A program made the translations under genes and the position numbers. The notes under the pieces are model-generated. The model did no database searches and was not told the DNA's origin. It saw nothing but the letters and a program-made list of their open reading frames with translations. Shown one piece after another: positions 2,382-6,201 of a stretch of 64,000 nt of DNA (within the stretch, counting starts at the first letter, position 1; the number at the start of each line of letters is the position of its first letter). The stretch is from Bacillota bacterium. GTDB taxonomy: Bacteria > Bacillota > Sulfobacillia > JACIYH01. The stretch spans positions 93,095-157,094 of the forward strand of contig JBFLXJ010000017.1 in the NCBI GenBank assembly GCA_040757085.1, in the 5' to 3' direction.

Positions 2382-2410
2382 TTGACATTGCGGTCTGCTG
2401 TGACTAGAAT
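2382..2410 (+). promoter_or_regulatory. Sigma-A promoter of the glutamate synthase operon
   Basis: TTGACA at 2382-2387 and TAGAAT at 2405-2410 are separated by exactly 17 bases, a near-perfect vegetative promoter. Transcription should start near 2417, giving a leader of about 335 bases that contains the ykkC-type riboswitch and its terminator before the first gene. Confidence 0.8.
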
Positions 2411-2455
2411 TCGCATCAAAAGGAACATGGATCCGGGCCAAGTGCTGGTCCCGGG

Positions 2456-2590
2456 ACGGGAGTGCGCCTAGGGTTCCGCGTCCCTGGCTAAATGGTGTAG
2501 CAACGCACCCAGGGATGGACTGGTCCAAGCGGCGCAATGCAGCGGATGCTGCAACACCGTGGGTAGCAGAAGACCCGAGCGGCAGGTTCC
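2456..2590 (+). promoter_or_regulatory. ykkC-type riboswitch, probable ppGpp (subtype 2a) class
   Basis: The hallmark strings of the ykkC RNA family occur in order: CTAGGGTTCCG at 2468-2478, GGACTGGTCCAAG at 2517-2529, then CACCG and AGAAGACCCGAGCGG near the 3' end. The GTCCAAG form (not GTCCGAG) fits the subtype 2 RNAs that bind ppGpp or PRPP rather than guanidine. The downstream genes encode glutamate synthase, a known target of the ppGpp class, whereas the PRPP class usually precedes purine genes; the ligand is therefore inferred from context. The aptamer's 3' end overlaps the 5' arm of the terminator, as expected for a switch that prevents termination when ligand is bound. Confidence 0.75.
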
Positions 2591-2618
2591 GTCCGGCGGA
2601 AGTCCGCGCGGGTCTTTT
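2570..2618 (+). terminator. Riboswitch-controlled intrinsic terminator
   Basis: AAGACCCGagCGG (2570-2582) pairs with CCGcgCGGGTCTT (2604-2616) and ends in a T run. It lies inside the leader, 135 bases before the first gene, and its 5' arm is part of the conserved riboswitch 3' end. Aptamer folding and termination should therefore exclude each other. Confidence 0.8.
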
Positions 2619-2752
2619 GCATCTCCCGGCGGGTTCCGGGACTGACCCGCTCGCGGACGAAGTGTCAACTGGCAGCGGTCAGCTTTACAGTGTGCGCGGC
2701 GACTGCCAGTGGTTACCATAGCGCGACGCGACGGGAAGGGAGGACGGTAGGA

Positions 2753-3925
2753 ATGGGAACGCGGGTTTGGCCTCACCGGGGTGAGACTCGGGACGGAATG
2801 CGCATCCCGTCCGGGTGCGCAGTTGCCGGGGTGGCGAGTACAGGAGGGCGACTCATTTCGGGGGACACGGTAGTGTGCATGGTGTGTGCCATGCCGGAAC
2901 GGACTAATGGCCTGGGGGCGGGATATGCCGCCTACGGGATATATCCGGACCTGGCCGACTGTTACGCCTTCCACCTGATGTACGAGGACGCCCGGGCCCG
3001 TGCGGCCGTCGAGGAGCTGTTGCAGGCAAGGTTTCAGGTGGAGGCTGCGGAGCCCATTCCCACCCGACCGAGAGTCCTGGTCGGAGCCCCGATCCTGTGG
3101 CGCTACTTCCTGAGAGTGCCGGAGCGGGTCGCTCGTTCGTGGGAAGAGTCCCATGCCGAACCGGCGGGCGACGGGCCGCGCGGAGAGGACGATTACGTGG
3201 TGCGGACGGTGATGGACATCAACAGCGGGATCCCGGGGGCGTTTGTCTTTTCCAGCGGCAGGAACATGGGCGTGTTCAAAGCGGTCGGTCACCCCGAAGC
3301 GGTGGCAGACTTCTTCATGCTCGACCAGTACCGGGGCTACTCCTGGCTGGGTCACTCCCGGTTTCCCACCAACACGCCTGGGTGGTGGGGCGGAGCGCAC
3401 CCGTTCTCGCTGCTGGATTGGTCGGTGGTGCACAACGGGGAACTGTCGTCTTACGGGACGAACCGGCGCTACGTGGAGTCCTTTGGTTACCGGTGCACGC
3501 TACTTACCGACACCGAAGTGATCGTCTACCTGGTCGATCTGCTGGTGCGGCGGCATGGCCTGCCCCTGCAAGCGGCCTGCCGCATCCTCACCCCTCCCTT
3601 CTGGAGGGATCTGGATGGGATGGGCGAAGAGGCTGCGTGGCTCCGCACTGCCCGCATCATATACGGAGGCGCTCTGCTCAATGGGCCGTTTACCACCATA
3701 CTGGGTCACTCCCGCGGGCTCGTGGGGCTGACCGATCGCCTGATGCTGAGGCCGCTGGTGGCCGCCACCCGGGGAGATCTGTTCTACCTTGCCTCCGAGG
3801 AAGCGGCCATCCGGGCGGTTTGCTCCAGCCCTGAACGGGTTTGGTCCCCGCCGGCGGGGGAACCTGTCGCGGTGGAGGTGGGGCTATCGCAGTTCGGCGT
3901 TTCGGCGGGGGTGGCCCGGAGATGA
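2753..3925 (+). CDS. Glutamate synthase, glutamine amidotransferase (class II) subunit, archaeal-type split form
   Basis: Predicted 390-residue Ntn-type amidotransferase that releases ammonia from glutamine for the FMN subunit encoded next. The likely nucleophile is the Cys in SGCAVAGV (residue 22 from this start). Diagnostic blocks are GLGAGYAAYGIYP, GHSRFPTNTPGWWGGAHPF and VVHNGELSSYGTNRRY, which form the glutamine pocket. It corresponds to the first domain of bacterial GltB, here a separate protein as in methanogens and some Clostridia and Thermotogae. ATG 2753 is chosen for its GGGAGG ribosome site 9 bases upstream; ATG 2798 would bring the Cys to residue 7, as in many relatives. The stop overlaps the next start by 4 bases (ATGA). 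Confidence 0.9.
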   Translation: MGTRVWPHRGETRDGMRIPSGCAVAGVASTGGRLISGDTVVCMVCAMPERTNGLGAGYAAYGIYPDLADCYAFHLMYEDARARAAVEELLQARFQVEAAEPIPTRPRVLVGAPILWRYFLRVPERVARSWEESHAEPAGDGPRGEDDYVVRTVMDINSGIPGAFVFSSGRNMGVFKAVGHPEAVADFFMLDQYRGYSWLGHSRFPTNTPGWWGGAHPFSLLDWSVVHNGELSSYGTNRRYVESFGYRCTLLTDTEVIVYLVDLLVRRHGLPLQAACRILTPPFWRDLDGMGEEAAWLRTARIIYGGALLNGPFTTILGHSRGLVGLTDRLMLRPLVAATRGDLFYLASEEAAIRAVCSSPERVWSPPAGEPVAVEVGLSQFGVSAGVARR

Positions 3926-5427
3926 GCATTGCCACCCAGGACAGGATGCGTTACGCCTCCTACGTTCCGCCCGAATTCAGCATCAGGGTGGATGAGGCCC
4001 AGTGCAAGTCCTGTCACCTGTGTGTCCGCCAGTGTTCCTTTGGCGCCTTGACGTTCCGCGAGCGGGTGACCCCGCACGATACCAGCTGTGTGGGCTGCCT
4101 GCGGTGTGTGGCTGTGTGCCCCACAGGGGCGATCACCGTGGTGCACAACCCCTGGCCGCTGAAGCCGAACGATGCCTGGCCGGAGTGGGCAGTGCGCGGG
4201 ATTTGGAGGCAGGCCTCCAGCGGGGCCAAGATCCTCACCGGATGCGGCAACGACAAGCCCTATCCCATCCTCTGGGACCACCTGCTGATGGATGCTGCCC
4301 AGGTTACCAATCCCCCTATCGATCCCCTGAGAGAGCCCATGGAACTGCGCACTTACCTGGGGAGGAAGCCGGAGCGCCTGGTGCCGGGGCAGACCCTGGA
4401 ACCGCAGCTTCAGCTCGGGGTTCCCGTTATGTTCGCCGCGATGTCGTACGGGGCGGTGAGCCTGAACGTGCACCGGGCTCTGGCCATGGCTGCCCGCGAG
4501 ATGGGCACCTTCATGAACGCGGGGGAGGGAGGACTGCACAGGGATCTCGGGCCTTACGGAGAGCACATCATCGTCCAGTGTGCGTCCGGCCGTTTTGGCG
4601 TGGACCCCGATTACCTGCGGGCAGCCGCGGCGGTGGAAATCAAGATCGGGCAGGGAGCAAAACCGGGCATCGGTGGCCACCTGCCAGGGGAGAAGGTGAC
4701 GCCCGATATAGCTGCTACGCGCATGATCCCGGTTGGCACGGACGCCATCTCTCCCGCCCCGCACCACGACATCTATTCGATCGAAGACCTGCGCCAGCTC
4801 ATCTACGCCATCAAGGAGGCCGTGGATTACCAAAAGCCCGTGGGGGTCAAGATTGCGGCCGTGCACAACGTGGCTGCCATCGCCAGCGGTATCGTCAGGG
4901 CGGGGGCCGACTTCATCACCATCGATGGTTTCCGCGGGGGGACGGGTGCTGCTCCTCTGGCTGTGCGGGATCACCTGGGTATCCCGCTCGAGGTGGCGTT
5001 GGCGGCGGTGGACCGGCGGTTGCGCGAGGAGGGGATCCGGCACCTGGTGTCGCTGGTGGCGAGCGGGGGGATTCGAAGCAGTGCCGACGTCTTGAAGGCG
5101 ATCGCCCTGGGCGCCGACGCAGTCGCCATCGGCACCGCCGCCCTGGTGGCCCTGGGATGCCGGCTGTGCCAGAGGTGCTATACGGGCAGGTGCGCCTGGG
5201 GCATCACCACCCAGGACCCGGAACTGGTCAGCCGCCTGGATGTGGAGGCAGCGGCCTGGCGCCTTACCAACCTCCTGCGGGCCTGGAGCCTGGAGATCAA
5301 GGAGATGCTGGGGGCGATGGGGATCAACGCTATCGAGAGCCTGCGCGGCAACCGGGATCGACTGCGGGGCGTGGGTCTCGACCCGCTCACCCTGGAGATT
5401 CTGGGGGTGCAGCCCGCGGGCAGGTAG
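3922..5427 (+). CDS. Glutamate synthase FMN/Fe-S subunit with N-terminal 2[4Fe-4S] ferredoxin domain
   Basis: Predicted 501-residue synthase subunit that converts 2-oxoglutarate plus ammonia to glutamate using FMN. Two ferredoxin cysteine sets sit at about residues 28-38 (CKSCHLC...C) and 56-66 (CVGCLRC...C) and would pass in electrons. The TIM-barrel FMN domain follows, with GQGAKPGIGGHLPGEKV, DAISPAPHHDIYSIEDL, ITIDGFRGGTGAAP and ASGGIRSSADVLKAIALGA. A cysteine group near residues 412-423 (GCRLCQRCYTGRC) matches the cluster site of glutamate synthases. No NADPH-oxidising small subunit is encoded nearby, so ferredoxin is the likely electron donor. The start overlaps the upstream gene by 4 bases. 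Confidence 0.92.
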   Translation: MSIATQDRMRYASYVPPEFSIRVDEAQCKSCHLCVRQCSFGALTFRERVTPHDTSCVGCLRCVAVCPTGAITVVHNPWPLKPNDAWPEWAVRGIWRQASSGAKILTGCGNDKPYPILWDHLLMDAAQVTNPPIDPLREPMELRTYLGRKPERLVPGQTLEPQLQLGVPVMFAAMSYGAVSLNVHRALAMAAREMGTFMNAGEGGLHRDLGPYGEHIIVQCASGRFGVDPDYLRAAAAVEIKIGQGAKPGIGGHLPGEKVTPDIAATRMIPVGTDAISPAPHHDIYSIEDLRQLIYAIKEAVDYQKPVGVKIAAVHNVAAIASGIVRAGADFITIDGFRGGTGAAPLAVRDHLGIPLEVALAAVDRRLREEGIRHLVSLVASGGIRSSADVLKAIALGADAVAIGTAALVALGCRLCQRCYTGRCAWGITTQDPELVSRLDVEAAAWRLTNLLRAWSLEIKEMLGAMGINAIESLRGNRDRLRGVGLDPLTLEILGVQPAGR

Positions 5428-5463
5428 AACGATTCGCCACCCTCAAGTGACGGGGTGATCACG

Positions 5464-6201
5464 GTGAGTCCCACTGACGGAAGCGCTTGCACCATCCACG
5501 CGGGCGGGATGGACTTTCGCGAACTGGGGCGAAACATCCGCCAGGCGGTGGCAAGAGGGGCGCGTAACATCTACGTGCAGGATGTCTGCGGGCAGCGTTA
5601 CATAGCCGCCGGGCTGACCGCGGACGTGTCCATTGTGGTCCGGGGGGTTCCCGGTAACGACCTGGGAGCGTTCATGGAAGGGCCCCGCATCAGGGTACTG
5701 GGCAACGTCCAGGATGCCGTGGCCAATACGATGAGCGGCGGCGAGATCGTAATCCACGGCGACGCCCGCAACGTGCTCTGTTACGCCATGCGGGGCGGGC
5801 GCGTGTACGTACGGGGCGACGTGGGTTACCGGGCGGGCATCAATATGAAGGCCTCTGGCGATCGGTGCCCCGTCCTCGTCGTGGGTGGGTCGCCTGGAGG
5901 CTTCTTGGGCGAGTACATGGCGGGCGGACGCATGGTAGTGCTGGGAACCGTCGCCGGGGATTGGACGGGGGCGGGCATGCATGGGGGCGCCATCTACATC
6001 CGGGGAGGCGTTAGTCCCCATCGCCTGTCTCCGGATGTACGGGTGTGCGACCTCGACGACGCCGACTGGGGCCAGTTGCGGGCAGACATTTGGGAATACT
6101 GTCGGTTCTTCGACCTGGATCCCGACCCGTTCCTGGCCTCGTCCTTCGTGAAGCTGGTGCCCAGGCGCCTGCGGCCTTACGGTGACCAGTACACCCACTG
6201 A
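5464..6201 (+). CDS. Glutamate synthase GXGXG-domain subunit
   Basis: Predicted 245-residue protein equivalent to the C-terminal beta-helix domain of bacterial GltB, the third part of this split enzyme. Repeated glycine-rich turns are visible (GGEIVIHGDARN, GGRVYVRGDVGYRAG, GGRMVVLGTVAGDWTGAGM, GGAIYIRGG), typical of GXGXG domains, which have a structural and channelling role. GTG 5464 is preferred because GGTGATC at 5454-5460 is complementary to the 16S rRNA tail at good spacing; GTG 5455 is a possible alternative. It ends the operon 36 bases after the FMN subunit. Confidence 0.88.
   Translation: MSPTDGSACTIHAGGMDFRELGRNIRQAVARGARNIYVQDVCGQRYIAAGLTADVSIVVRGVPGNDLGAFMEGPRIRVLGNVQDAVANTMSGGEIVIHGDARNVLCYAMRGGRVYVRGDVGYRAGINMKASGDRCPVLVVGGSPGGFLGEYMAGGRMVVLGTVAGDWTGAGMHGGAIYIRGGVSPHRLSPDVRVCDLDDADWGQLRADIWEYCRFFDLDPDPFLASSFVKLVPRRLRPYGDQYTH

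Follow-up and report, generated by a model that had tools for sequence, protein, structure and literature searches.

RNAs with the ykkC fold fall into subtypes that share this fold. Subtype 1 is the Guanidine-I riboswitch (RF00442), and subtype 2 includes the ppGpp riboswitches (2a), the PRPP riboswitches (2b), RNAs for nucleoside diphosphates (2c) and a further group, 2d. According to PMC5912903, the leaders of branched-chain, glutamate synthase and natA genes are subtype 2a and verified ppGpp riboswitches, and purine leaders are subtype 2b. PMC6031431 describes helix P0 of subtype 2 as formed by the two ends of the aptamer. It gives position 96 as G in more than 97% of the PRPP aptamers and as absent or A, C or U in ppGpp aptamers, and the exchange G96A alone makes a ppGpp aptamer out of a PRPP one. 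The same paper reports that C75 pairs with the guanine of ppGpp and that C75U shifts the specificity to adenine ligands.

The window considered here is a stretch of 64,000 nucleotides (G000:C17:93095-157094) from a 2.67 Mb assembly of an uncultured Bacillota bacterium with 34 contigs. Upstream of the genes for a split glutamate synthase, it contains a genuine leader RNA consisting of a promoter, a full ykkC-fold aptamer at 2454-2594 and an overlapping terminator (Table 1). This leader very probably is a ppGpp riboswitch of ykkC subtype 2a that acts as a transcriptional ON-switch for the glutamate synthase operon.

Table 1. Features of the leader and of the genes downstream of it (positions in the window)
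Feature	Position	Strand	Basis and remarks
Sigma-A type promoter TTGACA-17-TAGAAT	2382-2410	+	11/12 matches; hexamers and spacing invariant in 3 congeners
Leader hairpin between transcription start and aptamer	2433-2454	+	predicted fold; poorly conserved, sequence diverges in G001
P0 helix, 5' strand GGACGGGA	2454-2461	+	pairs with 2587-2594; 8/8 pairs standard in 3/3 congeners
P1 helix, 5' strand	2463-2468	+	pairs with 2531-2536; 6/6 pairs covary in A1
Conserved ykkC core CTAGGGTTCCG	2468-2478	+	sequence, RF00442 alignment, fold
Distal arm of first hairpin GTCCCTGG/CCAGGGAT	2480-2516	+	3/8 pairs change on both sides among congeners
Conserved ykkC core ACTGGTCCAAGC	2519-2530	+	C2530 is residue 49; residue numbering from PMC6031431
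P1 helix, 3' strand	2531-2536	+	predicted fold, congener comparison
Short hairpin TGCAGC/GCTGCA between P1 and last hairpin	2538-2553	+	predicted fold, congener comparison
C75-A76-C77	2555-2557	+	C75 is C2555; pairs with ppGpp guanine in the published structure
Last aptamer hairpin CCGTGGG/CCC..GCGG	2557-2582	+	holds specificity site G95-A96-G97 at 2577-2579
Intrinsic terminator	2570-2618	+	5' arm is the aptamer 3' end; predicted fold
P0 helix, 3' strand UUCCGUCC	2587-2594	+	also within terminator; predicted fold, congener comparison
Ribosome-binding site GGGAGG	2738-2743	+	sequence; invariant in 3 congeners
Glutamate synthase, class II glutamine amidotransferase subunit	2753-3925	+	Pfam GATase_6/GATase_2
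Glutamate synthase FMN subunit with ferredoxin domain	3922-5427	+	Pfam Glu_synthase E 2.2e-137, Fer4
Glutamate synthase GXGXG subunit	5455-6201	+	Pfam GXGXG E 3e-33

The consensus sigma-A promoter proposed by a first-pass annotation is the only site of this quality in 1501 bases, a length in which shuffled sequences give 0.2 such sites. Its spacer varies in sequence in two congeners, with the spacer length and both hexamers kept. Promoter, aptamer, terminator and ribosome-binding site are all conserved in both congeners (G001 and G002). The elements of the leader were originally placed at 2382-2618 and were confirmed there; the functional leader extends slightly further, to the start codon at 2753, and the predicted transcript leader has a length of 336 nt. 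In the region just upstream of the leader (633-2351), open frames overlap and GAF domains are encoded in more than one of them, which resembles a sensor gene that is truncated or has lost its continuous frame.

Within the aptamer, both conserved ykkC strings that had been pointed out earlier are present, CTAGGGTTCCG at 2468-2478 and CTGGTCCAAG at 2520-2529. Pairing is kept in 98.1% of the cells across three congeners, and the three pairs that change on both sides all belong to the first hairpin, where they lie in the distal arm. For P0, four of the six pairs show changes on both sides in the alignment of 28 family sequences. The helices of the R1 model (see below) covary as well, with changes on both sides in 17/27 pairs and 120 cells, compared to 39.2 for shuffled and 13 to 46 for slid alignments. 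Several aptamers of the family have lost positions around 96, which would fit a decayed or ligand-blind aptamer before a constitutive terminator or leader. However, the core is invariant in the three congeners, in contrast to the divergent flanks and distal arm with their three compensated pairs, which makes decay of this RNA highly improbable.

Assignment of the aptamer to a subtype

A scan of the window with Rfam 15 at gathering scores gave no match. In a relaxed search of positions 2350-2760 (411 bases), RF00442 was found at 2457-2583 with 42.3 bits (E 2.2e-6), so the standard scan is empty because this score lies below the gathering score of 63. As RF00442 is the sole credible match and is sub-threshold, the fold is that of ykkC and the subtype has to be decided by other evidence. 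Taken by itself, the only credible Rfam match would suggest a guanidine-I riboswitch, but seven guanidine-type RNAs of the same class reach 81.6-90.1 bits with this model, residue 49 is the pyrimidine C2530 and not the A of guanidine-I, and the target is unrelated to guanidine. Guanidine-I was thus rejected on the score and on residue 49, and its probability is close to negligible.

Searches with RF00442 covered 61 relatives as well as 154 genomes of the class, and 89 RNAs were extracted. To derive their gene contexts, the longest frames downstream of the RNAs were clustered and one or a few representatives of a cluster were compared with Pfam; tblastn was used for leu, pur, glt and ilvE. The context comparison leaves out 22 of the 89 RNAs that had no assigned context, and four rows had an unparsed field. 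Residue numbers were mapped onto the window by counting along the PRPP consensus, not the crystal sequence; on this count the specificity site reads CCC-G-A-G at 2574-2579, and residue 96 is A2578. The counts of this survey are not independent, as the members of a family are related to one another. G stands at position 96 in 10/10 purine-gene leaders, in 0/27 leaders of branched-chain synthesis genes and in 0/15 leaders of amino-acid or peptide transport genes. The 27 branched-chain synthesis leaders include 13 with A96, two that are parsed with an extra C before GAG, and 12 that are shortened and lack position 96. A96 is also found in both glutamate synthase leaders of the genus in the survey set (2/2), and a third, from G002, likewise reads GAG. 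Residue 49 is C in all branched-chain (27/27) and purine leaders (10/10) and A in 6/6 leaders with a guanidine context; transport leaders have C or T in 12/15 cases, G in two and A in one.

Two held-out covariance models were built from other families of the same class, none of the sequences coming from the genus of the window. R1 represents the ppGpp context with 28 leaders: 19 of branched-chain synthesis genes, five of branched-chain-type transport binding protein genes, two of ilvE and two (L176 and L112) without Pfam support for a branched-chain gene. R2 represents the PRPP context with 10 purine leaders. The window RNA scores 85.9 bits with R1 (E 6e-25; the next best place in the 64 kb has 12.3 bits) and 53.7 bits with R2. 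The glutamate synthase leaders of the congeners behave in the same way, with R1 and R2 scores of 84.9 and 57.8 bits in G001 and of 82.7 and 54.1 bits in G002 (L009). The seven guanidine-type RNAs reach 30.7-43.3 bits with R1 and 30.1-46.3 bits with R2. The first-pass annotation had proposed a ppGpp-sensing subtype 2 RNA, and the opposite of a better score for another subtype was found, namely 85.9 bits for the ppGpp context against 53.7 for PRPP and 42.3 for Guanidine-I. Together with C49, C75, A96 and P0, this points to ppGpp as the predicted ligand. One argument used earlier was lost: the form CTGGTCCAAG had to be given up as a marker of ppGpp and PRPP RNAs, since it is also present in L090, a guanidine-type RNA that has A49 and carries CTGGTCCAAGAG. 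The features that separate the subtypes are C49, A96 and P0.

A PRPP riboswitch of subtype 2b, which would tie glutamate synthesis to the supply of nucleotide precursors, has P0, C49 and C75 in common with the window RNA, and a PRPP-like RNA precedes a fused gltB in genome G143. This identity is nevertheless very unlikely, since the window has A96 as opposed to G in 10/10 purine leaders, R2 stays 32 bits under R1, and GGGA/UUCC, not GAAA/UUUC, is the form of P0 and of the 3' end. The fold is common to all subtypes and would also suit another subtype 2 ligand, that is 2c with nucleoside diphosphates or 2d. Judged by gene context and residue 75, this is very unlikely: C75 is kept, whereas the C75U exchange described in PMC6031431 moves specificity to adenine ligands, and the targets, glutamate synthase and leu genes, are those of 2a and not the NUDIX or phn genes listed in PMC5912903.

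At seven tested loci with ppGpp- or PRPP-type RNAs, RF00442 was the only Rfam 15 match at E <= 0.01 except for one T-box; its gathering score was reached at none of them, and no separate Rfam 15 family for ppGpp- or PRPP-type RNAs came up there. The T-box match (78.5 bits; gathering score 93) directly follows a ppGpp-type RNA at L104:1501-1935, before a gene for the small subunit of acetolactate synthase; tandems of this kind have already been described.

Aptamer and terminator as alternative structures

The overlap between the 5' arm of the terminator and the 3' end of the aptamer, as claimed at first pass, is borne out by the predicted fold and by the shared strands. The terminator alone folds with -28.4 kcal/mol (z -3.65; 1/200 shuffles equally good). 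The 3' strand of the last aptamer hairpin serves as its 5' arm, and the 3' strand of P0 lies in its upper part. If the RNA is folded up to position 2597, the aptamer-constrained structure (-74.4 kcal/mol) and the minimum free energy structure (-75.5 kcal/mol) are almost degenerate. With the terminator arm added, the minimum free energy structure contains the terminator and reaches -96.7 kcal/mol, versus -85.8 kcal/mol with the aptamer retained. The stem is followed by a short U-run (TCTTTTGC), and an automatic terminator scan did not list 2570-2618, probably because the stem is interrupted. Among the three congeners, pairing in the terminator is retained in 96.5% of the cells; as none of its pairs changes on both sides, this conservation is not independent proof.

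Aptamer and terminator need the same strands and exclude each other by pairing. This supports the proposed ON-switch architecture and corresponds to the published design, in which the closing helix is stabilised by ppGpp against terminator formation according to PMC10687018. In the proposed mechanism, RNA polymerase would start near position 2417 and produce the aptamer, which comprises P0, P1 and another two hairpins. With A at position 96, there would be a free place for the guanine of ppGpp at C75. Pairing of this guanine with C75 would hold P0 and the last hairpin closed, so that the terminator is denied its strands and RNA polymerase reads through into the three genes. When ppGpp is missing, the terminator, predicted to be about 11 kcal/mol more stable, would capture the strands and transcription would stop. 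Amino-acid starvation would thus lead to more glutamate synthesis.

Glutamate synthase genes and sister copies of the RNA

The three genes at 2753-6201 had been recognized as an archaeal-type glutamate synthase, and their Pfam domains confirm this: the GATase, the FMN-binding Glu_synthase domain with ferredoxin, and the GXGXG domain are encoded by separate genes in one operon, and the start of the FMN subunit gene (3922) overlaps the stop of the preceding GATase gene. NCBIfam gave only domain-level matches to the fused enzyme, below the cut-off, and PF01645 (Glu_synthase) has a single match in the genome. Glutamate synthase had also been called a known target of ppGpp-class RNAs, in agreement with its entry under subtype 2a in PMC5912903. 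As glutamate synthases are already listed among these targets, the suggestion that the target makes this RNA special is weakened. An incomplete literature search for ppGpp riboswitches and glutamate synthase returned PMC5912903 alone, and absence elsewhere therefore means little.

In the 154 genomes of the class, the search found 10 split gltB genes of near-full length (at least 60% identity). Five of these (G000, G001, G002, G045 and G057) are preceded by an R1 match that has the same orientation, lies on the same contig and is at most about 3 kb away. G045 and G057 belong to another family, and position 96 is C in both. In G045, genes for a 4Fe-4S protein and a pyridine nucleotide oxidoreductase lie between the RNA and the glutamate synthase genes, and in G057 a pyridine nucleotide oxidoreductase gene is likewise present. 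No R1 match was found near split gltB in G019, G028, G037 and G039, RNA and gene are on different contigs in G036, and the partial split gltB genes of G023 and G042 have no R1 match upstream. Since 5/10 gltB genes lack an upstream RNA on the same contig, RNA control of the split glutamate synthase is not universal.

The genome of the window encodes two further RNAs of this fold. A ppGpp-type RNA with A96 (L006:6586-6735, minus strand, on G000:C27; R1 99.0 versus R2 67.1 bits) stands before leuA-leuC-leuD-leuB-ilvE. A PRPP-type RNA with G96 and a GAAA/UUUC form of P0 (L007:613-762, G000:C23:266612-266761; R2 79.9 versus R1 56.6 bits) precedes purE-purB-purC-purQ-purL. The congeners keep the pur leader RNA with large insertions in one hairpin, and their R2 scores are only 43.9 and 30.9 bits, probably because of these long insertions. 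Translational control or an OFF-switch was first considered for the pur copy, as no obvious T-run follows it. This idea was dropped because a long hairpin of the congeners, GCCCAG..GGUUUC / GAAACC..CUGGGC, uses the 3' strands of the aptamer; by eye, the pur copy hairpin looks like a usual terminator with a weak U-run.

Regarding the supply of the ligand, the genome contains one RelA/SpoT gene. It also contains one CodY gene (G000:C17:157564-158097), about 470 bases beyond the end of the window. As RelA/SpoT and CodY are both present, there may be two ways in which the stringent response acts on amino-acid genes.

In G143, a PRPP-like RNA with GGG at 95-97 (L169:569-692, G143:C1:999868-999991; R2 85.2 versus R1 63.6 bits) is followed by a terminator-like hairpin and then by the gene for the fused glutamate synthase large subunit (gltB), the single such case among the 154 genomes. 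Across the class, glutamate synthase leaders thus have A or C at position 96 before the split enzyme, in two families, and G96 before the fused gltB of G143. A tentative reading, which we consider possible but doubtful, is that one scaffold, through differences at position 96 and in P0, divides control in the same cell of the genus between the alarmone (glt and leu, A96) and PRPP (pur, G96), and that glutamate synthase is under either type of ligand across the class, for which reason a natural switch of ligand at one target gene may have occurred.

Comparison with described riboswitches

The closest described system is the ppGpp riboswitch (2a), with which the window RNA shares the core sequences, P0, C49, C75, a residue other than G at position 96 and a terminator overlapping the 3' end, as well as glutamate synthase as a class of target according to PMC5912903. 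It differs by its GC-rich sequence with GGACGGGA/UUCCGUCC as P0, by an extra hairpin 5' of the aptamer and by its target, a split enzyme encoded by three genes. The PRPP riboswitch (2b) has the same fold with P0 and is represented in the same genome by the copy before purE-purB, but the window has A96 instead of G96 and GGGA/UUCC instead of GAAA/UUUC in P0. Guanidine-I (RF00442, subtype 1) shares the ykkC fold and is the only matching Rfam model; in contrast to it, the window has C at residue 49, possesses P0 and scores 20.7 bits under the gathering score. Because Rfam 15 shows only sub-threshold Guanidine-I matches at the seven loci, routine annotation misses such RNAs or would misname them.

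Both the switch class and the target gene class are already in print, and the window RNA is a clean new case of them. It adds a well-conserved predicted ppGpp riboswitch in an uncultured member of the Bacillota, located at the single glutamate synthase gene that was identified in this genome. The leu and glt leaders with A96 and the pur leader with G96 provide a natural matched set in which the effect of one position on the choice of ligand can be examined.
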